A DNA stretch of 44,545 nucleotides, taken from the NCBI GenBank assembly GCA_944380065.1, contig CALWGM010000008.1:1-44545 (forward strand), written 5' to 3'. This document shows, piece by piece, positions 7,299-22,977 of this stretch. The stretch's first letter is position 1. Each line of letters starts with the position of its first letter. A model generated the notes under the pieces. It had not been told where the DNA came from. It ran no database searches and saw only the letters and a list, made by a program, of their open reading frames with translations. Origin of the DNA: an uncultured Lachnospiraceae bacterium (GTDB lineage: Bacteria > Bacillota > Clostridia > Lachnospirales > Lachnospiraceae). Made by a program: the position numbers and the translations under genes.

Positions 7299-8462
7299 AT
7301 GAGAAAGATGAAGAAGACTTTGTCGGCTGCGACAGCTGTGATTCTGGCAACAAGCCTTTTCGCGGCAGGCTGCGGCACTCAGGAGGCGGAACAGGGCGGA
7401 CAGACCGGTACATCTGCTGAGGCGGAGACCACGGCGGCTTCTGACCTGAACAGCAAGACGCTGGATGAGATCATTGAGGCGGCAAAGGAAGAGGGTCGTG
7501 TAGAATCGGTCGGCATGCCGGATTCCTGGGCAAACTGGGGGCTGATGTGGCAGGGACTGGCTGATACCTACGGCCTGGAGCATGCAGATGCGGATATGTC
7601 TTCTGCGGAGGAGCTGCAGATGTTTGCTACGGAGGGCGAGAACGGAACCAAGGACATCGGTGACGTGGGTCAGGCTTTCGGCGCGCAGGCAGTTGAGGAA
7701 GACCTGGTACAGGGCTATAAGACCTCTTACTGGGACAGCGTTCCGGACTGGGCAAAGGGTGAAGACGGCAAATGGATGATGGCCTACACCGGAGCCACCA
7801 CATTCCTGGTAAACACGGACCTGATCGAGGGCGAAGCGCCCACTTCCTGGCAGGATATCCGCGAGGGATCCTATAAGGTATCCGTCGGCGATATCAACGG
7901 CGGCAACGCTCAGGCAGCGATTGTTGCTTCCGCTTATGCATTTGGCGGCGCTGACAGCGATATTACAGATTTTGACGCAGCTTTAGATGCAGCGTTTGAG
8001 TTCTGGACCGAGATGGCTGAGGCCGGACGCATCAACACGGTTGATATTACACAGCAGGGATTTGAGACCGGCGAGGTTCCGGTTGGCGTTGTATGGAGCT
8101 TCACGGCGATTCCGTACAAGGATGCGATCACCGAGTACAGCTTCGAGGCCAATATCCCCACAGACGGCGCGATCCTCAGCGGATATGCATCTGTGATCAA
8201 CAAATATGCGCCTCATCCCAACGCGGCAGCCCTGACCCGTGAGTACATCTTCAGTGACGAGGGACAGAACCTGCTTGCGGCAGCCGGCGCAATCCCTACC
8301 AGGACGGATGTGGAGATTTCGGAGGAGATCCAGGCAAATACCTTCCATACCGATGACTATGCAAATGCCATCCCCATGACAGACACGGACGCTTATACCG
8401 CAGTCTGCGAGAAGATCGTGGAGAGATGGTCTGCGGAGATCCTTCCGCTGCTGGTAAACTGA
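7299..8462 (+). CDS. ABC transporter substrate-binding lipoprotein (family 1 solute-binding protein)
   Basis: The product is 387 aa, starting at ATG 7299, 8 bases after AAGGAGG; the in-frame GTG/ATG codons upstream have no such site. A lipoprotein signal peptide ends at the lipobox FAAGC with C25 as the lipidated residue, so the protein sits on the outer face of the membrane. The fold resembles PotD/ThiB/aminoethylphosphonate-type binding proteins (EEGRVESVGMPDSWANW, TTFLVNTDLIEGEAPTSW, PHPNAAALTREYIFSDEGQ). It is followed by its own permeases and ATPase, a GDPD and the ethanolamine cluster, so the ligand is inferred to be a glycerophosphodiester or related phosphorylated ethanolamine compound. 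Polyamine, iron or phosphonate are alternatives. Confidence 0.9.
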   Translation: MRKMKKTLSAATAVILATSLFAAGCGTQEAEQGGQTGTSAEAETTAASDLNSKTLDEIIEAAKEEGRVESVGMPDSWANWGLMWQGLADTYGLEHADADMSSAEELQMFATEGENGTKDIGDVGQAFGAQAVEEDLVQGYKTSYWDSVPDWAKGEDGKWMMAYTGATTFLVNTDLIEGEAPTSWQDIREGSYKVSVGDINGGNAQAAIVASAYAFGGADSDITDFDAALDAAFEFWTEMAEAGRINTVDITQQGFETGEVPVGVVWSFTAIPYKDAITEYSFEANIPTDGAILSGYASVINKYAPHPNAAALTREYIFSDEGQNLLAAAGAIPTRTDVEISEEIQANTFHTDDYANAIPMTDTDAYTAVCEKIVERWSAEILPLLVN

Positions 8463-8508
8463 TTCAGCATTTGATAATATTCAGAACATAGTGTGCTTTT
8501 CCACAGGG

Positions 8509-8539
8509 GCATAAGGCGTACATCATGTACGCCTTATGC
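8509..8539 (+). other. perfect 15-bp stem-loop within the operon
   Basis: GCATAAGGCGTACAT (8509-8523) is the exact reverse complement of 8525-8539, with one base between. No T-run follows, so it is not a standard terminator. Placed directly after the binding-protein gene, it probably protects that part of the mRNA, as intercistronic hairpins do in other ABC operons where the binding protein is needed in excess. Confidence 0.65.
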
Positions 8540-8573
8540 GCTCTGTAGAGGCCAATGGAAACAGGTAAACGTA

Positions 8574-9401
8574 ATGGGAAGAAAAACAATACTCATATTA
8601 TTAGACGCCTGCCGGTTTGACCTGGCAGAAGAAACTGCCGGATATCTGGAACATCTGATCGAGAGATCCTGCGGGGCAAAATACTGTGTACAGGGAGAAT
8701 TGCCGTCCCAGTCCCGTCCGATGTACGAGACAACGATGACCGGCCTTCCTTCTTCCGTGCATGGGATCACGGACAATGAAGTGGTGCGCAGGTCGGATTG
8801 TGAAAATCTCTTCAGCCTGTGCCGCCAAAACGGGTTGAAAACAGCTGCCGCAGCCTATTACTGGATGAGCGAGCTGTATTACCGCGCCCCGTTCTGCCCG
8901 GAGTGTGACCGCTATCTTGCGGGAAACGGAGATTCCCTGATTGATTATGGGATTTTCTATTATGAAGATATCTATCCTGATTCACATCTTTATATGGATG
9001 CGGAATTCCTGCGGAAGACTTATCATCCGGATTTTCTGCTGATCCATCCGATGAACATCGATGACAGCGGGCACCGGTTTGGCGGGGATTCCCCGGAATA
9101 TCTGCGGGCCGGGCTGCGTTCTTTTGAACAGATTGCCAGGCTGCTTCCCGGATGGCTGTCGGAGGGATACCAGGTGGTTGTGACTGCGGATCACGGGATG
9201 TCGGCGGGCGGATACCATGGCGGGAACCGTGAGCCGCAGCGGCTGATTCCCCTTTACATTTTTGCGGACGGGGTAAAAAACGGGGATTTTTCGGACAGAA
9301 GGATTTCCCAGCTGAACACGGCTCCGCTGGTATGCCGGCTGCTGGGCATCCCTCCTGCAGAGGCCATGATGCAGGAGCTGGAAATTGAGATGGCAGATTA
9401 A
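8574..9401 (+). CDS. alkaline phosphatase superfamily hydrolase (nucleotide pyrophosphatase/phosphodiesterase-like)
   Basis: The product is 275 aa from ATG 8574 (GRKTILILLDACRFD); the reading frame extends upstream to 8493 but would cross the perfect hairpin. Metal-binding pattern residues are visible: D11, a Thr/Ser-rich nucleophile region at ~45-57 (QSRPMYETTMTG), D163-x3-H167 (DDSGH), D206-H207 (TADHG) and H215. This matches NPP or phosphonoacetate-hydrolase-type members rather than classical alkaline phosphatase. No signal peptide is present, so it is probably cytoplasmic and acts on an imported phosphodiester or phosphonate. It sits between the binding protein and permease genes, tying it to the transported substrate. 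Confidence 0.82.
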   Translation: MGRKTILILLDACRFDLAEETAGYLEHLIERSCGAKYCVQGELPSQSRPMYETTMTGLPSSVHGITDNEVVRRSDCENLFSLCRQNGLKTAAAAYYWMSELYYRAPFCPECDRYLAGNGDSLIDYGIFYYEDIYPDSHLYMDAEFLRKTYHPDFLLIHPMNIDDSGHRFGGDSPEYLRAGLRSFEQIARLLPGWLSEGYQVVVTADHGMSAGGYHGGNREPQRLIPLYIFADGVKNGDFSDRRISQLNTAPLVCRLLGIPPAEAMMQELEIEMAD

Positions 9402-9440
9402 CCCATACAGATGTATGGCTGGCAGATGGGAGTTGAACCT

Positions 9441-10289
9441 ATGAAGAAAAGAAAGTATATTTATCTACTTGCCTTGCTGCCGTTTATACTGGTGGCATTT
9501 ATGTACGAGATCATTCCTCTGGCAAAGATCATCGTAAACAGCTTCCAGCCGAATGAGGGGCTGGGCTTTACTTTGGAAAATTACCAGACGGTGTTTACGC
9601 AGCTGCTGTACCAAAAGGCGATCATCAACAGTATCAAGATTTCGCTGATTTCGGCGGCGGCAGGGATTGTGATTGCCTTTTTCGGCGCGAAATCCGCGCA
9701 TGACGTTGGAGGAAAGCTGAATAATGTTTTTACAACCATTCTCAATATGGTGTCGAATTTCGCGGGCATCCCGCTGGCATTTGCTTACATGATCCTTCTG
9801 GGAAACGCCGGTATTATGGTACAGATCGGCAGAAATTACGGGCTGGAGGCGCTGGCGAATTTTAATCTGTATTCTACCAACGGTATCAGCCTGGTATATG
9901 TTTATTTCCAGATACCGCTGTCCACGCTCCTGCTGCTCCCCGCATTTGAAGGGATCCGCAAGGAGTGGAAGGAAGCGTCCACGCTTTTGGGCGCCGGTAT
10001 GGGGACTTTCTGGGGAAGAATCGGGATTCCGGTTCTGATGCCCAGTATCCTGGGCACCTTCAGCGTACTTTTTGCCAATGCTCTGGCTGCATATGCGACC
10101 GTTTACGCATTGATGATGAACAGTATGTCCCTGCTGCCTGTGCAGATTGCAGGAAGCTTCGTGGGCGAGGTGACGATCAAAAAGGGACTGGGCGGCGCAT
10201 TGTCCGTCGTCATGATGCTGATCATGGTTGTCATGATTATTGTCACGAATAAGATCAGCAAATATTTCCAGAAGGGAGTGAAGCAGTAA
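9441..10289 (+). CDS. ABC transporter permease
   Basis: The product is 282 aa from ATG 9441, preceded at 8 bases by GGGAG. It has about six hydrophobic segments and the binding-protein-dependent permease EAA-like loop (EGIRKEWKEASTLLGAGMGTFWGRIGIPVLMPSI), which contacts the ATPase. It belongs to the PotB/ThiP/PhnU-type group that goes with family 1 binding proteins. The stop overlaps the start of the second permease (TAATG), so the two subunits are probably made in equal amounts. Confidence 0.92.
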   Translation: MKKRKYIYLLALLPFILVAFMYEIIPLAKIIVNSFQPNEGLGFTLENYQTVFTQLLYQKAIINSIKISLISAAAGIVIAFFGAKSAHDVGGKLNNVFTTILNMVSNFAGIPLAFAYMILLGNAGIMVQIGRNYGLEALANFNLYSTNGISLVYVYFQIPLSTLLLLPAFEGIRKEWKEASTLLGAGMGTFWGRIGIPVLMPSILGTFSVLFANALAAYATVYALMMNSMSLLPVQIAGSFVGEVTIKKGLGGALSVVMMLIMVVMIIVTNKISKYFQKGVKQ

Positions 10290-11101
10290 TGAAACAAAAA
10301 CGGATTGGTTCCTCTATCATTGTTGTCCTGGTTATGATCTATCTGCTGATCCCCCTTGCGGTGACGATTATCTATTCCCTGTTTGAGCAGTGGACAGATA
10401 TTGTCCCCAGAGGCTTTTCCTTTTCTGCCTATGCGGAGATTTTCCAGGATAAAGAGTTTCTCCTGAGCCTGGGACGGACGGTTGTGATCTGTATTATCCC
10501 TGTGGCGCTGACCATTGTGCTGGTGCTGCTGGCCCTGTTTGTGACGACGATTTATTTCCCGAAGTTAGAACAGTATGTGCAGATCATCTGTATGATCCCC
10601 TATACGATCCAGGGCGTGATCCTTTCCGTCAGTATCCTGGGACTTTACGTCAGCAACCCCACGTTCCTGGGAAACCGGATCGTGATGCTGATCGGCGCTT
10701 ATTGTATTATCATACTTCCCTATATCTATCAGGGCATCCGCAACGGTATGCGTTCCGTCAATATGCCGATGCTCTTAGAGGCGGCGGAGATGCTGGGCGC
10801 GTCCAAGCTTTACGCGTTTTTCAAGGTGATTGTTCCGAATATCCTGTCGGCGATTGTGGTTTCTTCCCTGCTGGCGATCGGAATTATTTTCGGTGACTAC
10901 GTCCTGGTAAGGAACCTGGCCGGTTCTGTATTCCCGAATGTACAGATTTATCTGTATCAGGCCATGAAGTCTGACAGTATGAAGTCCAGCGCTGTTTTTG
11001 TTGTGATTATGGCCGTTACCTTCCTGATCAGTGCGGTTGTACTTTACTTCAGGAGCAGGGAAGGACAGCACCGCAGTGAGCGGAAAAGAGCAAAGGAGTA
11101 A
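10289..11101 (+). CDS. ABC transporter permease
   Basis: The product is 270 aa with about six transmembrane segments and an EAA-like loop (LLEAAEMLGASKLYAFFKVIVPNIL). It is the PotC/PhnV-type second membrane subunit of the same importer. The ATG at 10289 overlaps the TAA of the preceding permease gene by one base. The ATPase gene follows after 14 bases. Confidence 0.92.
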   Translation: MKQKRIGSSIIVVLVMIYLLIPLAVTIIYSLFEQWTDIVPRGFSFSAYAEIFQDKEFLLSLGRTVVICIIPVALTIVLVLLALFVTTIYFPKLEQYVQIICMIPYTIQGVILSVSILGLYVSNPTFLGNRIVMLIGAYCIIILPYIYQGIRNGMRSVNMPMLLEAAEMLGASKLYAFFKVIVPNILSAIVVSSLLAIGIIFGDYVLVRNLAGSVFPNVQIYLYQAMKSDSMKSSAVFVVIMAVTFLISAVVLYFRSREGQHRSERKRAKE

Positions 11102-11115
11102 AGGAGAAAACGAAC

Positions 11116-12123
11116 ATGTCATATATACGTTTTGAGAACCTGTATAAAAGCTTTGGATCCAACGAAGTATTAAAAAATATTAATCTGGAAATTGAAAAAG
11201 GCCAGCTGGTTACCTTGCTCGGCCCTTCCGGCTGCGGAAAGAGTACGCTGCTGCGCTGCCTGGCGGGGCTGGAAACCGTGACCAGCGGAAAGGTGTATCT
11301 GGACGACAGGGATATTACCGATGTGAGTCCCAAGAACAGGGACATCGGCATGGTGTTCCAGCAGTACAGCCTGTTCCCCAATATGACGGTAGAACAGAAC
11401 GTGGCGTTCGGGCTGAAAATGAAAAAATATGAAAAAAGCAAAATTGACACAAAGGTGAAGGAAATTGTGGAAATTGTAGGTCTTGGAGACAAGATGAAAC
11501 ATTATCCCTCCCAGCTTTCCGGCGGACAGCAGCAGAGAGCTGCCCTGGCAAGGGCGATTGTGACGGAGCCGAAGGTTCTCCTTTTGGATGAGCCGCTGTC
11601 TGCCATTGACGCCCTTCTGCGCCATTCCCTGCAGATTGAGATCCGCAGGATCCAGAGGGAGCTGGATATTACCGCGATCTTTGTAACCCATGACCAGGAT
11701 GAGGCCATGGTGATGTCGGATATGATCCACCTGATGTATCAGGGCGTCATCGACCAGTCCGCAAAGCCTATCGAGCTGTATACGAAACCGGCGACAAAAT
11801 TTGCCGCGTCCTTTATCGGGCATTACAACGTGCTGTCAGCTGCGGAGATGGAGAAGGTCTGCGGGCAGAAGATCGACAGTGAGAATATTTCCTTCCGTCC
11901 GGAGATTATTAAGATTGCCGGAAAACCGTCTGAGGATCCGGACTGCTATGTGATGAAAGGGAAAGTGGCTGTCAGCCTTCCCCACGGAAACATCCTCCGT
12001 TACGGCGTACTCTGCAACGGGATGCAGATCGATGTGGATGTACTGTTTGATAATGTGGAATTGTTTGATGTTCATGATGAAGTGTACCTGTCTGTGAAAA
12101 AGGATGACTGCATTTACCTGTAA
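11116..12123 (+). CDS. ABC transporter ATP-binding protein (PotA-type)
   Basis: The product is 335 aa. The Walker A motif is GPSGCGKST (36-44), the Q-loop is QQYSLFP, the signature is LSGGQQQRAALARA and the Walker B is VLLLDEPLSAID, with a switch histidine in VTHDQDEAM. The ~100-residue C-terminal part resembles a TOBE-like regulatory domain (ENISFRPEIIKI...). It powers the importer formed with the two upstream permeases and the lipoprotein. Ribosome binding site AAGGAG lies before ATG 11116. The GDPD gene follows 12 bases downstream. Confidence 0.93.
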   Translation: MSYIRFENLYKSFGSNEVLKNINLEIEKGQLVTLLGPSGCGKSTLLRCLAGLETVTSGKVYLDDRDITDVSPKNRDIGMVFQQYSLFPNMTVEQNVAFGLKMKKYEKSKIDTKVKEIVEIVGLGDKMKHYPSQLSGGQQQRAALARAIVTEPKVLLLDEPLSAIDALLRHSLQIEIRRIQRELDITAIFVTHDQDEAMVMSDMIHLMYQGVIDQSAKPIELYTKPATKFAASFIGHYNVLSAAEMEKVCGQKIDSENISFRPEIIKIAGKPSEDPDCYVMKGKVAVSLPHGNILRYGVLCNGMQIDVDVLFDNVELFDVHDEVYLSVKKDDCIYL

Positions 12124-12135
12124 GGGAGTGTTATT

Positions 12136-12876
12136 ATGACAAAAAATTTTGCGCACCGGGGATATTCCGGGAAATATCCGGAAAATACATTGCTGGCTTT
12201 TGAAAAAGCGCTGGAGGCCGGGTGTGACGGCATTGAATTAGATGTGCATCTGTCCAGTGACGGGGAAGTGGTGATTATCCATGACGAGCTGGTGGACCGG
12301 ACAACCGACGGCACCGGACTGGTGGGCAGCCATACGCTGGCGCAGCTGAAAACACTGGATGCGTCCGCCGGATTCCGGGGTGTATACGGACGGAATGAGA
12401 TCCCGACGCTCCGGGAATATTTTGAACTTGTGAAAGAGAAAGATGTGGTGACCAATATCGAGCTGAAAACCGGCGTGGATACCTATCCGGGGATCGAAGA
12501 AAAGACGCTTTCCCTGATCGATGAATTTGGCCTCCGTGACCGGATAATCATTTCCTCGTTCAATCATTATTCGGTGATGCATTTTAAGGAGCTGGCTCCG
12601 GACATCCCCTGCGGATTTTTGGAGGAAAGCTGGGTGATCGGTATGCCTGCCTACACCAAAGAACACGGGATGGAATTTGTGCACCCGATTTTCAACGCAG
12701 TAACAGAAGGGTTTGCGGCCCAGTGCCGGGCGTGCGGCATCGGGATCAATACCTGGACCGTGAACACCAGAGAGGATATGCTGGATATGCTGCAGAAGGG
12801 CGTCCACGCGATCATTGGAAATGAGCCGGAGCTGGCGGGACAGGTGATCGCCGAGTATGAAGCAGGCAGGCGGTGA
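12136..12876 (+). CDS. glycerophosphodiester phosphodiesterase (GDPD)
   Basis: The product is 246 aa. GDPDs hydrolyse glycerophosphodiesters such as glycerophosphoethanolamine to glycerol-3-phosphate and the free alcohol. The catalytic and metal-binding set is complete: H7-R8 (AHRG), E16 (PENT), E34 and D36 (GIELDVH) and H49 (VIIHDE). There is no signal peptide, so the enzyme acts in the cytoplasm after uptake. It lies between the ABC importer and eutA with short gaps (12 and 6 bases). That is the main sequence argument that this operon feeds ethanolamine into EutBC from a glycerophosphodiester. Confidence 0.93.
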   Translation: MTKNFAHRGYSGKYPENTLLAFEKALEAGCDGIELDVHLSSDGEVVIIHDELVDRTTDGTGLVGSHTLAQLKTLDASAGFRGVYGRNEIPTLREYFELVKEKDVVTNIELKTGVDTYPGIEEKTLSLIDEFGLRDRIIISSFNHYSVMHFKELAPDIPCGFLEESWVIGMPAYTKEHGMEFVHPIFNAVTEGFAAQCRACGIGINTWTVNTREDMLDMLQKGVHAIIGNEPELAGQVIAEYEAGRR

Positions 12877-12882
12877 TGTCTG

Positions 12883-14310
12883 ATGGACAGGATCTTGAGT
12901 GTCGGCATTGATATTGGCACATCTACGACACAGGTGATCTTCAGCCGGCTGTCCGTGGAGAATACGGCCGGGTTTTTCTCCGTACCCCATGTGGATATTG
13001 TCAGCAAGGAGATTCTCTATAAAAGCGTCCCACAGGAAACGCCCTTAAAATCCCCGGTGCTGATCGATGCCGGAAGGGTGCGGGAGCTGGTGGACCGCGA
13101 GTTCCGGAAAGCCGGATACCGGCCGGAGGATACGCAGAGCGGAGCGGTGATTATCACCGGAGAGTCTGCCCGGAAAGAGAATTCGGATGCTGTGCTGGCG
13201 GAACTTTCTGATTTTTCCGGGGAATTTGTGGTTGCCGCCGCCGGCCCGGATCTGGAATCTGTCATTGCCGGAAAAGGCAGCGGCGCATATCAGTACAGCA
13301 TCGACCATCATTGCCGGGCCGTCAACCTGGATATCGGCGGAGGTACTGCAAACGCGGTGCTGTTCGACAATGGAGAGACGGTATCCAGAGGCTGTGTGGA
13401 CATTGGCGGCCGTCTGATCTGCGTAAATGGAAATGGCATGGTAAAAAAGGTCAGCCCGGCGGCCGCTGCGGTGGCGGCGGATCTTGGCGAAGCGGTTTCT
13501 GTGGGAAGCAGGGTTTCTGCTGCGGCGCTTTCCAAAGTCACAGACCGGATGGCCGGTCTGCTGGAGAGCTTTTTAGGGATTGCGCCGGCGGATGAGCTTT
13601 TGCGGGAAATCCGTACGCCGGGGAGCAGCCGGCTGACGGCCGGCGGAGATTTTGACGCGATCTTTTTTTCCGGCGGGGTGGCGGATCTGATTTATCACGA
13701 CTGTGAAAACGATTTCCGGTATGGTGATATCGGCGTCCTCTTAGGGCGCTCTGTCAGGCAAAGCAGGCTCTGCCGGGATTTTCAGATGCCGGAGGCCGGG
13801 GAAACCATCTGTGCCACAGTGGTGGGAGCCGGAATGTATACGACAACCATTTCCGGCAGTACCATCAGCTACTCTTCTGATATTTTCCCCATGAAAAATG
13901 TGCCGGTTCTGAAGCTGGGCCGGCAGTTGGAGGAGGACTGTTTTCAGGGGAGGAAGCAATCCCTGATCTGGCAGATCCGCTGGTTTTTGGATCAGACCGG
14001 AGCCAGCAGGCTTGTGATGGCCATGAAGGGGAAACGGAATCCGGATTATGGGGAAATCAGCCGGGCGGCCCGGTGCCTGTGGGAAGCTCTGGATGAGACG
14101 CTTCCTTATGGGGCTCCTGTCCTGCTGGTGCTGGAGCAGGATATCGCCAAGGCGCTGGGGACGCTGCTGCGGCGGTTTTCCGGCGGCAGACGCCAGCTCG
14201 TCGTGGTGGACAATATCCGGACAGAAGAAGGAGATTATATGGATTTTGGGAAACCGGTGATGGCCGGCATGGTGATCCCGGTGATTATAAAAACAATGGT
14301 ATTTGGATAG
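12883..14310 (+). CDS. eutA: ethanolamine ammonia-lyase reactivating factor EutA
   Basis: The product is 475 aa. EutA is an actin-like ATPase that exchanges damaged cobalamin from ethanolamine ammonia-lyase so the enzyme can be reloaded with adenosylcobalamin. Phosphate-binding motifs are seen at the N-terminus (SVGIDIGTSTTQVIFSRL) and near residue 147 (NLDIGGGTANAVLFDNG), with other family segments such as VVGAGMYTTTISGSTI. It is placed directly before eutB, as in known eut operons, with a 14-base gap. Confidence 0.95.
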   Translation: MDRILSVGIDIGTSTTQVIFSRLSVENTAGFFSVPHVDIVSKEILYKSVPQETPLKSPVLIDAGRVRELVDREFRKAGYRPEDTQSGAVIITGESARKENSDAVLAELSDFSGEFVVAAAGPDLESVIAGKGSGAYQYSIDHHCRAVNLDIGGGTANAVLFDNGETVSRGCVDIGGRLICVNGNGMVKKVSPAAAAVAADLGEAVSVGSRVSAAALSKVTDRMAGLLESFLGIAPADELLREIRTPGSSRLTAGGDFDAIFFSGGVADLIYHDCENDFRYGDIGVLLGRSVRQSRLCRDFQMPEAGETICATVVGAGMYTTTISGSTISYSSDIFPMKNVPVLKLGRQLEEDCFQGRKQSLIWQIRWFLDQTGASRLVMAMKGKRNPDYGEISRAARCLWEALDETLPYGAPVLLVLEQDIAKALGTLLRRFSGGRRQLVVVDNIRTEEGDYMDFGKPVMAGMVIPVIIKTMVFG

Positions 14311-14324
14311 AAGAAGGTGATAGA

Positions 14325-15713
14325 TTGAAATTATCGACACGGCTTTCAGGACGTACCTTTCAGTTCTCATCTGTAAAGGAAGTTCTGGCAAAGGCCAACG
14401 AACTGAAATCCGGCGATATACTGGCGGGGGTTGCGGCAGCTTCCGATCTGGAACGGATTGCGGCCAAAGAAGTACTGAGCGGGCTGCTTTTGTCTGACCT
14501 GAGGGAACATCCGGTGGTGCCCTATGAGGAGGATGAGGTAACCAGGATCATCCAGGACGGCGTGGACGAAGCCGTTTATGGCAGAATCCGGAACTGGAGC
14601 GTGGGAGAGCTCAGGGAATATATTTTAAATTACGGTACATCGGAGGATGACATCCGGCAGTTAAGCAAAGGCCTCACCAGCGAGATGACGGCGGCTGTCT
14701 GCAAGCTGATGTCCAACCTGGATCTGGTATATGCTGCCGGGAAGGTGAGGATCCCGGCACACTGCAATACGACCATCGGGCTTCGGGGGACGTTGGCCAC
14801 CCGTCTGCAGCCCAATCATTCCACTGATAACGTGGAGGGGATCACAGCTTCCCTGTTTGAGGGACTCAGCTATGGCTGCGGGGACGCGCTGATCGGACTG
14901 AATCCGGTGAATGATACGGTGTCCAGTCTGTCGGAGGTGCTGAAACGATTTGATGAGGTAAAGAGAGCGTTTGAGATACCGACCCAGATCTGTGTCTTAG
15001 GGCATATTACCACGCAGATTGAGGCTGTCAGGAACGGGGCGCCGGCCGACATGATTTTCCAGTCCATTGCCGGCAGCGAAAAGGGCAACCGGGCTTTCGG
15101 CTTTTCCGCGCAGACGGTCCGGGAGGCTATGGAGCTTCTGCAGGAAAAGGGAACGGGACAGGGGCCGGATGTGCTGTATTTTGAGACCGGCCAGGGATCC
15201 GAGCTTTCCTCAGACGCACATTACGGCGCGGATCAGGTGACGATGGAAGCACGCTGCTACGGGTTCGCCAGGCAGTTCCATCCGTTTATGGTCAATACGG
15301 TGGTAGGCTTTATCGGACCGGAATATCTCTATGACAGCCGGCAGGTGATCCGTGCCGGACTGGAGGATCATTTTATGGGAAAACTGACGGGGATTCCCAT
15401 GGGATGTGACTGCTGCTATACCAACCATATGATGGCGGACCAGAATGATATTGAAAATCTTTCCCTGCTGCTTGCTTCTTCCGGCGTCAATTATATTTTA
15501 GGCGTGCCTGCCGGTGATGATGTGATGCTGAACTATCAGACGAACGCTTACCATGACGCGGCGGCGATCCGGGAGATCCTGGGGCTGCGGCCGATCCGGG
15601 AGTTTGACCAGTGGCTGGAAAAAATGGGGATCAGCGAGAACGGGAAGCTGACGAAATATGCCGGCGACCCTACGCTGTTTATCCGGCGGGGAGGTGGAAC
15701 ATCATGGCATTGA
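14325..15713 (+). CDS. eutB: ethanolamine ammonia-lyase large subunit EutB
   Basis: The product is 462 aa with a TTG start at 14325 after AGAAGGTGAT; this start aligns with the known EutB N-terminus (MKL..T..G..Y.F..VKEVLAKANE). EutB is the TIM-barrel subunit that, with EutC and adenosylcobalamin, converts ethanolamine to acetaldehyde and ammonia. Strongly conserved segments include CVLGHITTQIEAVRNGAP, YFETGQGSELS, NTVVGFIGPEYLYDSRQ, LEDHFMGKLTGIPMGCDCC and GDDVMLNYQTNAYHD. The length matches E. coli EutB (453). The end overlaps eutC by 10 bases. Confidence 0.98.
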   Translation: MKLSTRLSGRTFQFSSVKEVLAKANELKSGDILAGVAAASDLERIAAKEVLSGLLLSDLREHPVVPYEEDEVTRIIQDGVDEAVYGRIRNWSVGELREYILNYGTSEDDIRQLSKGLTSEMTAAVCKLMSNLDLVYAAGKVRIPAHCNTTIGLRGTLATRLQPNHSTDNVEGITASLFEGLSYGCGDALIGLNPVNDTVSSLSEVLKRFDEVKRAFEIPTQICVLGHITTQIEAVRNGAPADMIFQSIAGSEKGNRAFGFSAQTVREAMELLQEKGTGQGPDVLYFETGQGSELSSDAHYGADQVTMEARCYGFARQFHPFMVNTVVGFIGPEYLYDSRQVIRAGLEDHFMGKLTGIPMGCDCCYTNHMMADQNDIENLSLLLASSGVNYILGVPAGDDVMLNYQTNAYHDAAAIREILGLRPIREFDQWLEKMGISENGKLTKYAGDPTLFIRRGGGTSWH

Positions 15714-16510
15714 GCGAACAGCAGATCCGGCAGATTGCGGAGGCTGTTTTGGCGGAGCTTGCGGCAGCGGGGAAGCTGCCCCAAAAGAGCTGCGGGCTGA
15801 AGCAGCCGCAGGATGAGAAGGCGCTGCGGCGAATGCTCCGCACTACGACCGCCAGGATCGGCATCGGAAATGCCGGGCCGAGGCTGAAGACACAGACGCT
15901 GCTGACCTTGCGGGCAGACCATGCGGCAGCCAGGGACGCGGTTATGATGGATGTGGATCAGGGACTGTTAGACAGTCTGGGGCTGTTCACCGTCCAGACC
16001 TGCTGCAGTGAAAAGAATGAATTCCTTACCCGGCCGGATCTGGGACGGAAGCTGAATGAAGAGGCGGTGCGTACCATCCGCAGCCGCTGTGAGATGCACC
16101 CGGATGTCCAGATTTGTGTGGCGGACGGCTTAAGCTCTACCGCCATTCAGGCAAATATACCGAATATCCTTCCCATCCTGAAGGAGGGGCTTTCGGAGCA
16201 GGGGCTGAAAATGGGAACGCCGTTTTTTATCAAATATGGCCGGGTGGCGGTGGAAGACCAGATCAGCGAAATCCTGGGAGCACGGGTGGTCTGCATCCTG
16301 ATCGGCGAACGTCCCGGCCTTGGCAGTGCGGAGAGCATGAGCGCCTATCTGGCGTACGACGCGAAGGTGGGGATGCCGGAAGCACGGCGTACCGTGGTTT
16401 CCAATATCCATAAAGATGGTATCAACGCGGTGGAGGCCGGGGCTTATCTGGTGGATCTGATCGGTGAGATTTCAGAGAAAAAAGCCAGCGGCGTAGATCT
16501 CCGGCACTGA
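15704..16510 (+). CDS. eutC: ethanolamine ammonia-lyase small subunit EutC
   Basis: The product is 268 aa from ATG 15704, 6 bases after GGGGAGGTGG. It completes ethanolamine ammonia-lyase and helps bind cobalamin. Recognisable family segments are RIGIGNAGPRLKTQTLL, FLTRPDLGRKL, ADGLSSTAIQAN and IGERPGLGSAESMSAYL. The first ~20 residues (ALSEQQIRQIAEAVLAELAA) form a short amphipathic helix followed by a linker, like the encapsulation peptide described for EutC in other organisms, which targets the enzyme into the microcompartment. Confidence 0.97.
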   Translation: MALSEQQIRQIAEAVLAELAAAGKLPQKSCGLKQPQDEKALRRMLRTTTARIGIGNAGPRLKTQTLLTLRADHAAARDAVMMDVDQGLLDSLGLFTVQTCCSEKNEFLTRPDLGRKLNEEAVRTIRSRCEMHPDVQICVADGLSSTAIQANIPNILPILKEGLSEQGLKMGTPFFIKYGRVAVEDQISEILGARVVCILIGERPGLGSAESMSAYLAYDAKVGMPEARRTVVSNIHKDGINAVEAGAYLVDLIGEISEKKASGVDLRH

Positions 16511-16534
16511 AACGGACGGAGGATGGGATGACTT

Positions 16535-17188
16535 ATGAAACATGATGCGATCAGGACGAAGATCCTGAGTGTTCGAATGATACCAAACGCGGATCCCATG
16601 CTGCTCGGCGCGCTGCATCTGCCGCGGGAATGCCGGAGTCTGGGGCTGATTACTACAGACTGCGACGACGTCTCCTATGCGGCGCTGGATGAGGCGACCA
16701 AAAAGGCGCAGGTTTCTGTGGCGTACGCAAAAAGTATGTATGCTGGCTCCTCGAATGCCAGTACAGCCCTGGCAGGAGAGTTCATCGGCATTCTGGCAGG
16801 CGAAAATCCGGCGGAGGTAAAAAGCGGCCTGGAGGCGGCGGTTTCTTTTATAGAGGAGGACGCCTGTTTTTACAGCGCCAATGAAGAGGACAGCGTGGTC
16901 TATTTCGCCCACTGTATTTCCAGGACCGGTTCCTATCTTTCCGCCCTGGCGGGAGTCCCGGAGGGGACTGCCATGGCCTATCTGATTGCGCCTCCCCTTG
17001 AAGCGATGGTGGGGCTGGACGCGGCCATAAAAAGCGCCGAGGTAGAACTGAAATGTTTTTACGGTCCCCCGACAGAAACCAACTTTGCGGGAGGGTTGCT
17101 GACCGGGGACCAGGCAGCCTGCAAAGCAGCCTGTGAGGCGTTTGCTGAAGCAGTCTGCGAAATTGCAGGTACCCCATTGTCCTTTTAG
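16535..17188 (+). CDS. eutL: ethanolamine microcompartment shell protein EutL
   Basis: The product is 217 aa with tandem, circularly permuted BMC domains, the usual EutL length. EutL forms pseudohexameric trimers with a gated central pore in the shell. Family segments include MLLGALHLPRECRSLGLIT, SMYAGSSNASTALAGEFIG, GTAMAYLIAPPLEAMVGLD and the C-terminal TNFAGGLLTGDQAACKAAC. It sits 24 bases after eutC, the usual eutC-eutL order. Confidence 0.96.
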   Translation: MKHDAIRTKILSVRMIPNADPMLLGALHLPRECRSLGLITTDCDDVSYAALDEATKKAQVSVAYAKSMYAGSSNASTALAGEFIGILAGENPAEVKSGLEAAVSFIEEDACFYSANEEDSVVYFAHCISRTGSYLSALAGVPEGTAMAYLIAPPLEAMVGLDAAIKSAEVELKCFYGPPTETNFAGGLLTGDQAACKAACEAFAEAVCEIAGTPLSF

Positions 17189-17226
17189 GCAATGCGGTGA
17201 AAATACAGGACAAAGGAGGTGCATTT

Positions 17227-18750
17227 ATGGAGTTTGACAAAGACCTGCAGTCGATCCAGCAGGTCAGGAACTTAGTGGCGAGAGCTGTGGTGGCCCAGAA
17301 AGAGCTGGCACGGATGCCGCAGGAGAAAATCGACACGATCTGCCGTGCGGTGGCAAAAGCCTGCGCTGCCAATGCGGAGTCTCTTGCCAAAATGGCGGTG
17401 GAGGAAACCGGATTCGGTATCTGGCAGGATAAGGTTCTTAAAAATATGCTGGGTTCCATTATTACCTGGGACAGTATCAAAGATACCAGAACGGTGGGAG
17501 TGATCCGGGAAGACCGGGAAAAAAGACTGATTGAGATCGGTGTTCCCATGGGAGTCGTGGCCGCGCTGATCCCTTCTACCAATCCCACTTCCACAACCAT
17601 GTACAAATCCATTATTTCGATCAAGGCAGGAAACGCCATCGTGATCAGCCCACATCCCAATGCAAAGGAATGTATTATCAAGACAGCGGAGATCATCAGC
17701 CGGGCGGCTGCGGAGGCCGGGGCGCCGGACGGGATCATCCAGTGCATTTCCCTGCCGACCATGGAGGCCACCGACGCCCTCTTAAAGAGCCGCAGCATCG
17801 GTATCATTCTGGCCACAGGCGGGGAAGCGATGGTGCGCGCCGCTTACAGCTCCGGCAATCCGGCGCTGGGCGTGGGACCGGGAAACGGGCCGGCCTTTAT
17901 TGAAAAGTCCGCGGACATTCCCCGGGCTGTGAAGCGGATCATGGACAGCAAGACCTTTGACAATGGAACCATCTGCGCGTCGGAACAGAGTATTATTACG
18001 GAGCGGTGCATCGAAAACCAGGTGGTGGAAGAGGTCAGACGGCAGGGCGGGTATTTCCTGTCGCCGGAAGAATCTGAGCAGCTGTCCGGCTTCATTTTGC
18101 GGGCAAACGGCACGATGAATCCGCGGATTGTGGGAAAAAGCGCCCGGCAGATCGCTGATATGGCGGGCATCCGGATCCCTGCCGGAACAAGAGTCCTTTT
18201 GTCACGGCAGACAGCTGTAGGGAAACATATTCCGTATTCCCGCGAAAAGCTGTGCCCGATTCTGGCGTTTTATGTGGAAGAAGGCTGGGAGGAGGCCTGC
18301 CGCCGTTCGATTGAGATCCTGAATAACGAGGGGATCGGACACACCATGGTGATCCACAGTGAGAACGAACAGGTGATCCGGGAATTCGCCCTGCAAAAGC
18401 CGGTATCGCGGCTTTTGGTGAATACGCCGGGCGCCCTTGGCGGCGTAGGGGCATCCACGAACCTTCCGCCGGCTCTGACGCTGGGATGCGGCTCTGTGGG
18501 CGGAAGCGCCACCTCGGATAATGTGGGGCCGCTGAACCTGATCAATATCCGGAGGGTTGCCTGGGGCGTGCGGGAATTGGAGGATCTGCGGGCAGATTTC
18601 GGCGGTGTGCAGCCGACAGTTTTGCAGGAACCTGCAGCCTGCGGCCGGGCAGAGGAAAAATCAGAACCGGCCAGCGGGGCATTCCAGATCGATCCGGAGG
18701 ATATTGAGCGGATCGCTGCCGCAGTGATGGAGCGGCTGGGCGTCCGCTGA
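17227..18750 (+). CDS. eutE: CoA-acylating acetaldehyde dehydrogenase EutE with C-terminal helix tag
   Basis: The product is 507 aa from ATG 17227, behind a strong AAAGGAGGTG site; a start at 17197 would add 10 residues with no such site. It oxidises acetaldehyde with CoA and NAD to acetyl-CoA inside the microcompartment. The catalytic cysteine is C250 (FDNGTICASEQS) and the nucleotide-binding region is GVGPGNGPAFIEKS (215-228). After the catalytic fold comes an Ala/Glu-rich linker and a final helix (DPEDIERIAAAVMERLGVR), probably an encapsulation peptide at the C-terminus instead of the N-terminus. It lies 38 bases after eutL. Confidence 0.95.
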   Translation: MEFDKDLQSIQQVRNLVARAVVAQKELARMPQEKIDTICRAVAKACAANAESLAKMAVEETGFGIWQDKVLKNMLGSIITWDSIKDTRTVGVIREDREKRLIEIGVPMGVVAALIPSTNPTSTTMYKSIISIKAGNAIVISPHPNAKECIIKTAEIISRAAAEAGAPDGIIQCISLPTMEATDALLKSRSIGIILATGGEAMVRAAYSSGNPALGVGPGNGPAFIEKSADIPRAVKRIMDSKTFDNGTICASEQSIITERCIENQVVEEVRRQGGYFLSPEESEQLSGFILRANGTMNPRIVGKSARQIADMAGIRIPAGTRVLLSRQTAVGKHIPYSREKLCPILAFYVEEGWEEACRRSIEILNNEGIGHTMVIHSENEQVIREFALQKPVSRLLVNTPGALGGVGASTNLPPALTLGCGSVGGSATSDNVGPLNLINIRRVAWGVRELEDLRADFGGVQPTVLQEPAACGRAEEKSEPASGAFQIDPEDIERIAAAVMERLGVR

Positions 18751-18810
18751 AGCAGCTTATTTTAAAGACGTATACTATTATTTATTTCATTTTCATGGAG
18801 GTAACTGATT

Positions 18811-19107
18811 ATGGCAGACAAATTAATGGCACTGGGAATGGTTGAAACACGGGGACTGGTTGGTTCCATTGAAGCGGCGGATGCGATGGTAAAGGCAGCC
18901 AATGTGAATCTGATCGGAAAAGTACATGTGGGAGGCGGTCTGGTAACCGTTATGGTAAGAGGCGATGTAGGCGCTGTGAAAGCTGCCACAGACGCAGGCG
19001 CCGCCGCCGCATCCAAGGTCGGGGAACTGGTTTCTGTACATGTGATCCCCAGACCTCATGATGAGGTGGAGTATATTCTCCCTACCCTGCAGACGTCTGA
19101 TAAATAA
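18811..19107 (+). CDS. eutM: microcompartment shell hexamer protein (EutM/PduA type)
   Basis: The product is 98 aa, a single canonical BMC domain ([20 protein letters not shown], then [17 protein letters not shown] and [12 protein letters not shown]). Such proteins form the flat hexameric tiles of the shell, with small pores for substrates. It is the only single-domain hexamer in the locus, so it is presumably the main facet component. A GGAGGT ribosome binding site precedes ATG 18811. The 60-base gap before it is one of the larger ones in the operon. Confidence 0.95.
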
Positions 19108-19147
19108 AGGATGCGGGAATGATCTTTGATAAAGCAGGTGAAGCAGA

Positions 19148-20740
19148 ATGCAGATTTTAACAGATTCCGTGCTGCGCGCCCATTGGTTCCGCACGCACGA
19201 AAAGACATATTTTATATCAGAAGATACACGGCTCACGCCTGCGGCAAGAGATTTTATTAAGGAACAGGGGATTTCGCTGGTGACAAACGGCGCGGAGGCA
19301 GTGTGCTGCGCAGATTCGTGCAGCGGCAGGCAGACTTCTGAAAAACCGGAGGATATGACGCATCTGCGGGGAAATATTCTGGTACCGAAGACGCATCCGC
19401 AGATCGCGTTCCGGGGGATGCTGGACAGCCTGGAAGCAAAAATCATGGAAGTGCAGGTCATTGCCTCCGAAAACAGCCAGCCCTGGCTGGTGGAGGCCTT
19501 AGACGAAGTGCTTGCCTTTGTGCAGCAGGTTTTAAGGGCGGAGGTTATGGACGAGCCTGTGGCGGAAATGAAGCTGCTCGGTATGGATCAGGAGCAGATC
19601 CATTATGAATCCCAGCATCCGCAGGAAATTTTCGGTATTTCCCATCCGCTCCCCAACTTCCGTATGGGCAACGTCTGCGTGGCGCTGAATGAGCTGCGGG
19701 CTTTTGTCCGGGAAACAGAGCTGTCTGCGGTCCGGGCATTCTGTGAGGGCGGAAACTGCAGACGGATCGATATTGTCCAGGCACTGAACCGATTAAGCAG
19801 CCTGATCTATATCCTGTTTTGCAGACAGTATACCGGACAGGGCGGAAAGCCTTGCAGCCGGCATCCGGCTCCTTCTGCCAACACAGTGAAAAAACGTTTC
19901 CCGGTGGAAGCCTCCGGACGCCATGTCCATCTGACCCGGGAGGCTGTCCGGGCGCTGTTTGGCCAGGAGGATCTGACGAAACAGTCTGACCTGAGCCAGC
20001 CCGGGCAGTTTGTGGCAAAGGAACGGGTGAAAATCATCACGGCGAAAGGGGAATTTGACCATGTGGCTGTGCTGGGACCGGTGCGGAAAGAGGTGCAGAC
20101 AGAGCTGTCCCTGACCGATGCGCGGATCCTGGGAATTGATATTCCGGTGCGGCTTTCCGGTGACCTGAGAGGGGCTGGTGACGTCATTTTAGTCGGACCG
20201 AAAGGTATTTATAACGCGGTCGGTTCCGCCATCGCCTCCCGGGCGCACATCCACATGACGCCGGAGGACGCGGCAGAGTTTGGCGTCCGTGACGGGGACA
20301 GTGTCAGAGTCCGTCTGGATACCGGCCGGCCGGTTACCCTGGACGAGGTGCTGATCCGGGTAAACCGTGATTTTTCACTTGCCATGCATTTGGACTATGA
20401 TGAGGCCAACGCCTGTTCCTTCCGGCAGGGAGACACCGGCGTGATCGTGTCCGGCGTCTGTATCCCCGGGACGGAAACCGGGTCTGTACAGGATACCGCA
20501 TGCCAGGCCAATACACAGGCCGCCGCGGCCGCATCCGGCCTGTGCGGGTCTTCGGCACCCAAAGCTGCCGGACAGTCCTGCAGGCGCGCCAAAAGATGCC
20601 TGATTACGGAAGAAGCAGCGCTGCAGCTTTTAGCAGAGGCAGGCGGCAGCGGGGAGATCTGTATTGCGAAAGACGCGATCGTGACGCCCCTGGCCTGGGA
20701 TACTTTAAAAGAACATAAGCTGCGTGTGGTCAGAAAATAA
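19148..20740 (+). CDS. fusion protein: EutT-type cobalamin adenosyltransferase + PduL-type phosphotransacylase
   Basis: The product is 530 aa. Residues 1-230 match EutT (LTPAARDFIKEQGI, THLRGNILVPKTHPQIAFRGMLD, IVQALNRLSSLIY), which makes adenosylcobalamin for EutBC. Residues ~250-440 match PduL, which turns acetyl-CoA plus phosphate into acetyl phosphate; its zinc histidines are visible as H259/H261 (GRHVHLT), H367/H369 (AHIHMT) and H414 (AMHLDYDEANA). An Ala-rich linker leads to a C-terminal ~48-residue segment (LITEEAALQLL...TPLAWDTLKEHKL) that resembles the protein's own N-terminus. The EutT cysteine cluster is CCx3C (C53, C54, C58), not the CCx2C of Salmonella EutT. No frame break is seen, so this is a true fusion. 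Confidence 0.9.
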   Translation: MQILTDSVLRAHWFRTHEKTYFISEDTRLTPAARDFIKEQGISLVTNGAEAVCCADSCSGRQTSEKPEDMTHLRGNILVPKTHPQIAFRGMLDSLEAKIMEVQVIASENSQPWLVEALDEVLAFVQQVLRAEVMDEPVAEMKLLGMDQEQIHYESQHPQEIFGISHPLPNFRMGNVCVALNELRAFVRETELSAVRAFCEGGNCRRIDIVQALNRLSSLIYILFCRQYTGQGGKPCSRHPAPSANTVKKRFPVEASGRHVHLTREAVRALFGQEDLTKQSDLSQPGQFVAKERVKIITAKGEFDHVAVLGPVRKEVQTELSLTDARILGIDIPVRLSGDLRGAGDVILVGPKGIYNAVGSAIASRAHIHMTPEDAAEFGVRDGDSVRVRLDTGRPVTLDEVLIRVNRDFSLAMHLDYDEANACSFRQGDTGVIVSGVCIPGTETGSVQDTACQANTQAAAAASGLCGSSAPKAAGQSCRRAKRCLITEEAALQLLAEAGGSGEICIAKDAIVTPLAWDTLKEHKLRVVRK

Positions 20741-20779
20741 AGGGCTGCCGGAAACGGCGGCACAGAGGAGAGAAAAGAT

Positions 20780-21061
20780 ATGCTGATCTGTAAGGTTGTC
20801 GGCCATGTCTGGGCGACAAAAAAAGATGATGGTTTAAACGGGCTGAAGCTGATGGTCGTACAGGAAATCGACGGAGAACAGTGTTTCGGACATACATTTG
20901 TAGCTGCCGATATCGTCGGCGCAGGAATCGGGGAGCGAGTTCTGGTTGTAGGCGGGAGTACGGCCAGGAAAGCGTTTGGCCGGGAAGATATTCCTGTGGA
21001 CAGTGCGATCGTGGCGATCATTGACAGCCTGGAGATCACAGGACGCAGCGACAGCGAATAG
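20780..21061 (+). CDS. eutN: microcompartment vertex protein EutN/CcmL
   Basis: The product is 93 aa with the EutN/CcmL fold signature (MLICKVVGHVWATKKDDGLNG, GIGERVLVVGGSTARKAF, VDSAIVAIIDSLEI). These proteins form pentamers that cap the twelve corners of the polyhedral shell. It is the only vertex protein in the locus. A GAGGAGAG site precedes ATG 20780; pduS follows after 12 bases. Confidence 0.95.
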   Translation: MLICKVVGHVWATKKDDGLNGLKLMVVQEIDGEQCFGHTFVAADIVGAGIGERVLVVGGSTARKAFGREDIPVDSAIVAIIDSLEITGRSDSE

Positions 21062-21073
21062 AGGTGAGCCAGA

Positions 21074-22426
21074 TTGGATTTATTGGGCAAAATAAAAAAT
21101 GCCGGTATCGTCGGCTGCGGCGGGGCAGGATTTCCCACCCACGTGAAGTTGGATGCGAAACCGGAATATTTTATCATTAACGGAGCGGAATGTGAGCCGC
21201 TGCTGCACACAGACCGTTATATCATGACACATCTGGCGGACCGCCTGATTGCCGGGGCGGATGCGGTCTGCCGCGCCCTGTCTGTCCGTGAGGGCTATAT
21301 TGCATTGAAAAAAAGCTATCAGCAGGAAATCAGCGCCCTGCAGGCGGCGATCGAAAAGGCGGGATCCTGCATGAAGATCCATGAAATGGATAGTTTTTAT
21401 CCTGCCGGGGACGAACAGGTGATCGTATATGAGGTCACCGGGCGCGTTGTGCCGCCTGCCGGTATTCCTCTGAACGTGGGCGTCGTCGTGGACAATGCGG
21501 CGACTGTGCTGGCAATTGCCGACGCCGCAGATGACATCCCGTTCACGGACAAATACCTGACGGTGACGGGGGAAGTGAATGAACCGGCTGTCTTAAAGGT
21601 TCCGGTGGGAACTTCTTTCCGGGAGTGTATCCGGCTGGCGGGCGGCGTTTCCTGCAGCCGGCCGATGGTGGTATCCGGCGGACCCATGATGGGAAAACCC
21701 CTGTCCTGGGAGGAGGCGATGGAAAACGCTGTCACAAAAACCACGTCCGGCATCCTGATTCTGAAAGATTCCTCCGTGATCGGGCGAAACCGTGACATGG
21801 AGATCCGACATATGCTGAACCGGGCAAAATCAGCCTGTATTCAATGTTCCTTCTGTACATCCCTCTGTCCGCGGCATTTGTTGGGCCATCCGCTGAAGCC
21901 CCACAGAATCATGCGGAAAATAGCTGCCGCAGGAGACCCGGATGTACTGCTGGCAGATGAGGAGATCCGTCAGGCAGCCATCTGCTGTGAATGTGGAGTT
22001 TGTGAGGTTTATGCCTGCCCGATGGGCTTAAATCCCAGGAAGATCAACAGTCTGCTGAAGGCAAAGCTGGCGCAGGCCGGGATCCGCTATGAGAGAACGC
22101 AGGAGGAATACTGCGCCGATCCGGGACGGGAATACCGGAAATGCCCGACGAAGCGCGTGGCCGCCAGGGCAGGCGTGCTGCCGTATTATGGCATTCAGGA
22201 CTTCGCGTACCGGGAGTTTGAGCCGGAGCGGGTGGAAATACCGCTGAAAATGAATATCGGAGCGGAGGCCGTCCCTGTTGTGGGACAGGGCAGCCAGGTG
22301 AAAAAAGGACAGAGGATTGCGGCCTGCCCGGATGGGAAGCTGGGCGCAGACATCCACGCAAGTATAGCGGGCACAGTATCGTTTGGCCAGCATTCTGTGA
22401 CCATTGACCGGACAGGCGGGAGGTAA
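21074..22426 (+). CDS. pduS: PduS-type cobalamin reductase, RnfC-like iron-sulfur flavoprotein
   Basis: The product is 450 aa with a TTG start after GAGGTGAG. It has an N-terminal glycine-rich NADH/FMN region (IVGCGGAGFPTHVKL, 12-26), an SLBB domain in the middle, and two 4Fe-4S motifs (CIQCSFCTSLCP and CCECGVCEVYACP). PduS reduces cob(III)/cob(II)alamin so the adenosyltransferase can act, and may regenerate NAD inside the shell. Here it would serve the EutT half of the fusion protein. The gene ends 2 bases before the pduT start. Confidence 0.93.
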   Translation: MDLLGKIKNAGIVGCGGAGFPTHVKLDAKPEYFIINGAECEPLLHTDRYIMTHLADRLIAGADAVCRALSVREGYIALKKSYQQEISALQAAIEKAGSCMKIHEMDSFYPAGDEQVIVYEVTGRVVPPAGIPLNVGVVVDNAATVLAIADAADDIPFTDKYLTVTGEVNEPAVLKVPVGTSFRECIRLAGGVSCSRPMVVSGGPMMGKPLSWEEAMENAVTKTTSGILILKDSSVIGRNRDMEIRHMLNRAKSACIQCSFCTSLCPRHLLGHPLKPHRIMRKIAAAGDPDVLLADEEIRQAAICCECGVCEVYACPMGLNPRKINSLLKAKLAQAGIRYERTQEEYCADPGREYRKCPTKRVAARAGVLPYYGIQDFAYREFEPERVEIPLKMNIGAEAVPVVGQGSQVKKGQRIAACPDGKLGADIHASIAGTVSFGQHSVTIDRTGGR

Positions 22427-22428
22427 TT

Positions 22429-22977
22429 ATGTTTGAAACAATCGGTTTTCTGGAATTGAACAGTATTGCCAGGGGAATCGAGGCAGCGGATATTGTGCTG
22501 AAAACGGCAGAGGTGGAACTTCTGTTCGCGCGGGCGGGCTGCCCGGGCAAATATGAGATCCTGTTTACCGGGGAAGTGGCAGCTGTGCAGGCTTCTATCG
22601 AAGCCGGAGCGGCCGTGGGAGGAGAGCATACCGTAGACTGCTGTGTGATACCGCGCGTCCATCCGCAGGTGATCCGTGCAATCCACCTGGCCAATATCCC
22701 GGAGCAGATGAACGCACTGGGAATCATGGAATTTTACAGCGTAACAGCCTCTGTGTACGGTGCGGACGCAGCCGTGAAAGCCGCAGAGGTAGATCTGATT
22801 GATGTGCGGCTGGGAACCGGGATCGGAGGAAAATCTTTCGTGATTCTGACCGGAGAAGTAGCGGCAGTCCGGGAGGCGGTTTCCTGTGGGATTTCCACGG
22901 AAAACGCACAGGGCATGCTGGTTTCCAGCGTGGTCATTGCCAATCCGCGCCGGGAGATTTTCGACTCCTTGCTGTAA
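22429..22977 (+). CDS. pduT: tandem-BMC shell protein PduT with pore iron-sulfur cysteine
   Basis: The product is 182 aa with two BMC domains (1-~88 and ~92-182), the length of PduT. It forms trimers with a central pore. In PduT of Citrobacter and Salmonella, Cys38 from each subunit binds a 4Fe-4S cluster at the pore; here the cysteine in [13 protein letters not shown] is also residue 38. Together with PduS immediately upstream this suggests electron transfer across the shell. It is the last gene of the operon, and no terminator is recognised between it and the rplU promoter. Confidence 0.94.

Follow-up and report, generated by a model that had tools for sequence, protein, structure and literature searches.

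The contig CALWGM010000008.1 of an uncultured Lachnospiraceae bacterium (assembly GCA_944380065.1), analysed here over its full 44,545 nucleotides (the window), carries between positions 7299 and 22977 a run of genes in which an ATP-binding cassette (ABC) importer, an AP-superfamily phosphodiesterase and a glycerophosphodiester phosphodiesterase (GDPD) lead into an ethanolamine utilization (eut) microcompartment operon (Table 1). Our results indicate that this run probably links the import of a lipid head-group diester to the Eut organelle, with glycerophosphoethanolamine being split and fed to the Eut enzymes. The host genome (G000; G and L numbers are our handles for genomes and loci) is a draft of 2.69 Mb in 160 contigs, 95.7% complete. 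Gene identities were taken from Pfam and NCBIfam model scores and the intergenic gaps were measured on the sequence. The gaps range from -10 to 60 bp, the sole exception being 111 bp ahead of the AP-type gene (taking 9441 as the start of permease A and 15704 as that of eutC). The importer and GDPD genes lie side by side on the same strand, with 12 bp between ATPase and GDPD and 6 bp between GDPD and eutA, so the tiny gaps with which, in a preliminary description of this DNA, the importer and GDPD ran into eutABC are borne out.

Table 1. Genes of the run at positions 7299-22977 and the basis of their assignment.
Gene or product	Position	Strand	Remarks
Substrate-binding lipoprotein, SBP_bac_6, weakly PhnS-like	7299..8462	+	AAGGAGG precedes 7299; in-frame start at 7251 also open
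AP-superfamily phosphodiesterase, NPP-like, 275 aa	8574..9401	+	Likely start 8574; longest reading frame from 8493; no signal peptide by eye
ABC permease A	9441..10289	+	Longest reading frame from 9411; weak family scores and position
ABC permease B	10289..11101	+	Pfam, NCBIfam
ABC importer ATPase	11116..12123	+	Best model PhnT2, under its cut-off
Glycerophosphodiester phosphodiesterase (GDPD), cytoplasmic	12136..12876	+	Pfam, conserved residues; no signal peptide by eye
eutA, ethanolamine ammonia-lyase reactivase	12883..14310	+	Above Pfam cut-off, under NCBIfam one
eutB, ethanolamine ammonia-lyase large subunit	14325..15713	+	Above NCBIfam cut-off
eutC, ethanolamine ammonia-lyase small subunit	15704..16510	+	Longest reading frame from 15611; above NCBIfam cut-off
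eutL shell protein	16535..17188	+	Above NCBIfam cut-off
Aldehyde dehydrogenase, in eutE place	17227..18750	+	Pfam Aldedh; eutE by position and family
eutM-type shell hexamer (BMC-H)	18811..19107	+	1.4 bits under NCBIfam EutM cut-off
EutT-type cobalamin adenosyltransferase and EutD-type (PduL family) phosphotransacylase fusion	19148..20740	+	Pfam, NCBIfam
eutN shell pentamer (BMC-P)	20780..21061	+	Pfam
PduS/RnfC-like electron-transfer protein	21074..22426	+	Under NCBIfam cut-offs
Double-BMC-domain shell protein, PduT-like	22429..22977	+	Under PduT cut-off

Two parts of the preliminary description have to be qualified. What it called a complete family 1 ABC importer does comprise a binding protein, two permeases and an ATPase, but permease A is weakly assigned (19.6 bits against a Pfam cut-off of 26.4, with NCBIfam permease models also matching under cut-off) and the binding protein belongs to Pfam SBP_bac_6 (PF13343), not to Pfam SBP family 1. 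Its full microcompartment has all three shell types, BMC-H, BMC-T and BMC-P (EutL above its NCBIfam cut-off, the EutM-, EutN- and double-BMC-type proteins above Pfam cut-offs), but no eutG-, eutH- or eutS-type gene was seen within the run. EutB and EutC, with 672.6 and 313.1 bits, exceed NCBIfam cut-offs of 554 and 230. The fused EutT- and EutD-type protein has 530 aa; a single long match is also found in L022 and L023, and two separate genes in L231.

Key residues of both phosphoesterases are conserved. The GDPD matches PF03009 with 161 bits (cut-off 23.6), its nearest solved relative is 2pz0, and H7, R8, E34, D36, H49, E109 and K111 do not vary across 18 aligned rows (17 of the 26 stretches found, plus the window), the catalytic residues presumably being among their His, Glu and Asp. 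The AP-type protein matches PF01663 with 77 bits (cut-off 23) and D11, S47, D163, H167, D206, H207 and H215 are likewise unchanged in 26 rows (25 of 35, plus the window); we take these to include the metal ligands and the Ser/Thr nucleophile. Its model (predicted local distance difference test, pLDDT, of 97) matches in fold a bacterial NPP first and then the ENPP family, with ENPP6 at rank 29, and by sequence ENPP6 is the top match (E 1e-5). With these Pfam matches and no signal peptide visible by eye, the cytoplasmic AP-superfamily hydrolase and signal-less GDPD of the preliminary description both stand. In Trichococcus, Enterococcus, Paenibacillus and Vibrio loci (L134, L127, L129, L162) the AP-type gene lies, as in the window, between the lipoprotein and permease A, and because of this common position it looks native to the importer cassette.

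Evidence that importer, GDPD and eut belong together comes from other genomes. A contig scan yielded 595 stretches, at least 578 of which encode a relative of the binding protein; the best 80 were analysed and split by identity into 31 close loci (at least 51%, L093-L123) and 49 distant ones (42-48%, L124-L172). EutA/B/C/L genes occur in the same fetched locus in 10 of the 31 close cases (L094, L096, L099, L104, L105, L106, L107, L110, L119, L121) against 1 of the 49 distant ones (L167), or in 11 of 31 with shell genes counted, since L123 has PduS- and BMC-T-type genes only; as many contigs end early, these linkage counts are lower bounds. In G291 and Coprococcus catus VPIC661 the order binding protein, permease, permease, ATPase, GDPD and eutABC is repeated co-directionally without the AP-type gene. 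Shared in this way with G291 and C. catus, and with EutA/B/C/L found at 10 of the 31 close loci, the order is not due to chance, and the search for binding protein and GDPD together with eutABC that the preliminary description had proposed was positive in these and further close relatives. The eut-linked importers span two phyla and five arrangements: importer and GDPD leading into eutABC on one strand (window, G291, L094, L099 and L107, in the last of which 2 kb separate GDPD from eutA), eut first (L096), divergent (L104, L121, L167), convergent (L105, L106), and importer leading into EutM-EutA without GDPD (L110). EutB was found in 24 of the 31 close-locus genomes and in 4 of 19 distant controls, including L167 (Fisher p 1e-4, uncorrected for relatedness), and in 22 of 299 genomes of the family. 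Within that family sample five genomes have the close importer (G000, G025, G239, G289, G291); eut adjoins it in three and lies 28 kb off in G289. Profile searches were also run on 20 stretches of 10-20 kb that contain eut but no importer (L173-L192; G289 and G291, whose importer lies elsewhere, contributed three) and on four eut neighbourhoods of close-clade genomes (L230-L233); neither GDPD nor binding protein was found in any of them. A joint function of importer, GDPD and eut is thus well supported by recurrence.

Phosphoesterases regularly accompany the importer. Loci were counted as well covered if 5.2 kb or more followed the binding protein (20 close, 40 distant). Among these, GDPD is present at 17 of 20 close against 0 of 40 distant loci, the AP type at 2 of 20 against 27 of 40 and the PHP type at 0 of 20 against 11 of 40. 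An AP or PHP phosphoesterase occurs at 38 of the 40 distant loci, and some phosphoesterase gene at 55 of the 60; none of the three types was found in L100, L110 and L119 (close) or in L124 and L144 (distant). L124 and L125 fall inside the close branch of the tree described below, and with L124 moved the figures become 17 of 21 for GDPD in close loci and 38 of 39 for AP or PHP in distant ones. One of the PHP proteins scores as a member of the CehA/McbA family. By eye, the PHP gene of Lachnospiraceae loci follows the ATPase in L025, L026, L027, L029, L030, L032 and L034 and precedes the binding protein in L028 and L031; none was visible in L033, and L035 is truncated. We lean towards a more general view, held with less assurance than that for the window, in which the binding-protein family comprises widespread and largely unassigned phosphodiester importers with interchangeable cytosolic phosphoesterases (AP-type, CehA-like PHP or GDPD), and one branch has repeatedly been joined to eut in place of EutH, so that these microcompartments would be fed by lipid-derived diesters and not by free ethanolamine.

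The distribution of ethanolamine permeases is consistent with such a replacement. Transporters named for ethanolamine are EutH, Eat and EatA (in the part consulted of PMC6620236). In the 95.7% complete window genome the Pfam model, by which alone EutH was counted, gave no match to EutH, the usual but not obligate eut permease; the Eat model TIGR00908 gave none either, a weak control given that in none of 14 control genomes did this model exceed its cut-off. EutH is found in 44 of 299 family genomes, and in 1 of 12 genomes with eut beside the close importer (the window, G291, L094, L096, L099, L104, L105, L106, L107, L110, L121 and L123, G291 being the only one with EutH) against 21 of the 33 other genomes with EutB (10 of 14 in the close clade and 11 of 19 in the family sample; p 0.0017, uncorrected for relatedness). 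Neither L119 (eutA and EutH present, no EutB found) nor the distant controls with EutB enter this count; if L119 and L167 are counted as adjacent and G338 and G347 among the others, it becomes 3 of 14 against 23 of 35 (p 0.01, again uncorrected for relatedness). G332 was left out since it matches at the same place as G122, which is included. G291 itself has three eut loci, two with EutH and without importer (L177, L178) and a third (L022) that combines importer and GDPD, with no EutH in its stretch.

The fold and sequence rankings of the binding protein differ and its PhnS score is far under cut-off, and the ligand class therefore has to be argued mainly from gene context. In fold, the model (pLDDT 95) matches six chains of its C. 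jejuni ortholog 5t1p, presumably Cj0727, followed by 4r6y (stm0429), a glucose-6-phosphate binder and apo AfuA, which makes organophosphate binders the nearest fold neighbours with a named ligand; 5t1p belongs to the same family by sequence profile (E 3e-137). The binding protein, both permeases and the ATPase all score best with NCBIfam models of 2-aminoethylphosphonate transporters, in every case under cut-off (PhnS 44.8 of 395 bits, PhnU 45 of 283, PhnV 57 of 359, PhnT 286 of 499, PhnT2 364 of 458), which places them outside the PhnSTUV equivalogs. The Ugp families are likewise not reached (ATPase, UgpC, 326 of 432 bits; GDPD, PRK09454, which we take to be UgpQ, 138 of 264), and no UgpB model is among the three NCBIfam matches of the binding protein. 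We infer from the expected substrates and products of the neighbouring enzymes that the imported ligand is glycerophosphoethanolamine, and the import of a head-group diester put forward in the preliminary description gains support from the co-occurrence, from the absence of EutH and Eat matches in the genome and from the invariant GDPD residues.

Other ligands have to be considered. It is rather unlikely, though the least so of the alternatives, that the importer serves several glycerophosphodiesters (choline, glycerol and ethanolamine forms) mainly as a source of glycerol-3-phosphate or phosphorus, with eut salvaging the ethanolamine. The E. coli ugpBAECQ operon, which joins a glycerophosphocholine transporter to a cytosolic GDPD and is induced by phosphate depletion (as described in part of PMC5438359), would be a precedent, and genes similar to glycerol-3-phosphate oxidase lie near GDPD or importer in L024, L095 and L097; however, the repeated linkage to eut in differing arrangements, and the EutB of 24 of the 31 close-clade genomes, point to ethanolamine as a main product. 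Import of a monoester or phosphonate (phosphoethanolamine or 2-aminoethylphosphonate), with GDPD being incidental, appears improbable: the best transporter scores under cut-off and the fold match 4r6y, named a putative 2-aminoethylphosphonate-binding protein, would fit it, but a GDPD, present at 17 of 20 well-covered close loci, is needless for such substrates, and use of 2-aminoethylphosphonate was rejected for this genome, where no PhnW or PhnX model rises above cut-off. Sequence similarity alone would allow the importer to take iron or polyamine, its position before eut then being unrelated to function. The profile search ranks iron binders (1y4t, 6ivy) directly after 5t1p and ahead of AfuA, PotD and 4r6y, the iron binder FutA1 comes tenth in the fold list, its score being close, and a spermidine binder appears there too. 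Because 55 of the 60 well-covered importer loci include a phosphoesterase gene, and with the eut link recurring in two phyla, we hold this to be the least probable of the alternatives.

Besides the similarity to iron binders, several observations weigh against the coupling of diester uptake to eut. The title of the 5t1p entry says only "putative" and names no ligand, and we know of no member of this binding-protein family whose ligand has been established. GDPD specificities vary, and GlpQ of M. pneumoniae is inactive on glycerophosphoethanolamine (according to the part consulted of PMC3178575). Of the 14 close-clade genomes with EutB whose fetched locus lacks eut, 10 have EutH, and G291 has a third EutH some 120 kb away from its importer, on one contig with it. 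At neutral pH free ethanolamine passes through membranes (PMC5821096, in the part consulted), and the absence of EutH thus does not exclude its use. L110 combines importer and eut with no GDPD, AP or PHP gene found, and L167 has eut with a distant AP-type cassette, no GDPD, and EutH in its genome. In G239 the binding protein (62-74% identity) is matched in two pieces, its 20-kb stretch (L036) contains neither GDPD nor eut, and EutB is absent from the genome; the sole same-genus genome sampled (G159) lacks both importer and EutB. A consensus scan placed no site in the 6-bp GDPD-eutA gap but found terminator- and promoter-like sites inside the run, for example at 12953 in eutA. The run is probably one transcription unit; given these intragenic sites, and an excess of promoter- and terminator-like sites over shuffles, we can only infer a single transcript.

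The phylogeny of the binding protein bears on the same question. The tree has 52 rows (27 of the 31 close and 22 of the 49 distant loci, the window, L022 and L024), and all close rows plus L124 and L125 form one branch (support 100/99) with the window inside it; the rows of this branch come from Bacillota, Chloroflexota and one metagenome-assembled genome titled Bacteroidetes. A further point against the coupling is that the eut label is not clustered beyond shuffles among labelled rows, requiring 7 changes among rows labelled eut or GDPD-only, with 248 of 500 shuffles as low. Since this is no fewer than in shuffles, the label has been gained or lost repeatedly, which we read as repeated association of importer and eut; loss from one origin is a possible alternative.

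If the run does couple diester uptake to eut, the lipoprotein and ABC transporter would import glycerophosphoethanolamine, and the GDPD, judging from its family and conserved residues, would split it in the cytoplasm into sn-glycerol-3-phosphate and ethanolamine, perhaps assisted by the AP-type phosphodiesterase with overlapping substrates. EutBC, the aldehyde dehydrogenase and the EutD-type enzyme would then convert ethanolamine to ammonia, acetaldehyde, acetyl-CoA and acetyl-phosphate within the EutL/M/N shell, the Eut reactions being assigned from family knowledge. An enzyme similar to glycerol-3-phosphate oxidase, whose gene lies in another part of the genome, may oxidise the glycerol-3-phosphate. 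In G289 other genes separate the ATPase from the GDPD gene 8.5 kb downstream; the gene that follows this GDPD is nearest to type 2 glycerol-3-phosphate oxidase (under cut-off), and the window genome has a 63% relative on another contig. Importer and esterase would stand in for EutH, much as the ugpBAECQ products act in phosphate supply, and the organelle may draw on debris of membrane lipids besides free ethanolamine.

Some further features surround the importer here and elsewhere. An MgtC-family membrane protein gene adjoins it in the window (6464-7180) and in 3 of the 80 other loci, upstream in L099 (about 8884) and L107 (about 8971) and downstream in L167 (about 14828). Tandem GDPD genes follow the ATPase in L105, L111, L113, L115, L117, L118 and L120, all except L105 being Oscillospiraceae by title. 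Two Vibrio loci have a HAD-type phosphatase gene directly after the distant cassette (L162, 14666-15334, by NCBIfam; L166, 14582-15241, by eye), which suggests cleavage of a diester and then of a monoester. In Enterococcus the distant cassette lies near a glycyl-radical enzyme (L127, 4743-14590) or an activating protein (L229); a choline link through the former was rejected, its 640 of 1050 bits falling under the CutC cut-off. Enterococcus accounts for 178 of 187 plasmid records with a binding-protein relative at E 1e-40. In the window itself, two overlapping phage-integrase-family reading frames occupy the left contig end (168-2029), and Rfam at its gathering threshold finds only a tRNA.

Ethanolamine organelles are usually discussed as users of free ethanolamine released by others. 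The locus predicts instead that some gut commensals import a charged head-group diester and make ethanolamine inside; internal release would deny it to competitors and add glycerol-3-phosphate. It also puts forward a concrete candidate ligand for an importer family that is poorly annotated, and it offers a testable reason why some genomes have eut operons but no EutH. If the broader view of the family is right, the prediction would reach the cassettes of Enterococcus, Trichococcus, Paenibacillus and Vibrio as well as C. jejuni 5t1p.

The preliminary description knew of no such arrangement as a described system, and among the titles and abstract openings listed by our searches of the open-access literature we found no description of an ABC importer and GDPD joined to eut. 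Its closest parallel in logic is E. coli ugpBAECQ, in which an ABC importer and a cytoplasmic GDPD share an operon for glycerophosphodiester use (PMC5438359, in part), but the binding protein of the run is from another family, its ATPase and GDPD remain under Ugp-type cut-offs, and it adjoins eut. With Eut microcompartments served by EutH or Eat it shares EutABC, EutL/M/N-type shell proteins, an aldehyde dehydrogenase and EutT-/EutD-type enzymes, whereas here the genome has no EutH or Eat match, and importer and phosphoesterases stand in their place. To the PhnSTUV and PhnT2 importers the transporter parts are weakly similar, all under cut-off, in a genome without PhnW or PhnX above cut-off, while C. 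jejuni 5t1p, of the same family by profile and the best fold match of the binding protein, has an entry title without a ligand. The accessory hydrolase, finally, has the AP-superfamily fold and metal-site pattern of the glycerophosphocholine phosphodiesterase ENPP6 and of bacterial NPP, but is weakly similar to them (E 1e-5 at best), cytoplasmic and 275 aa long.

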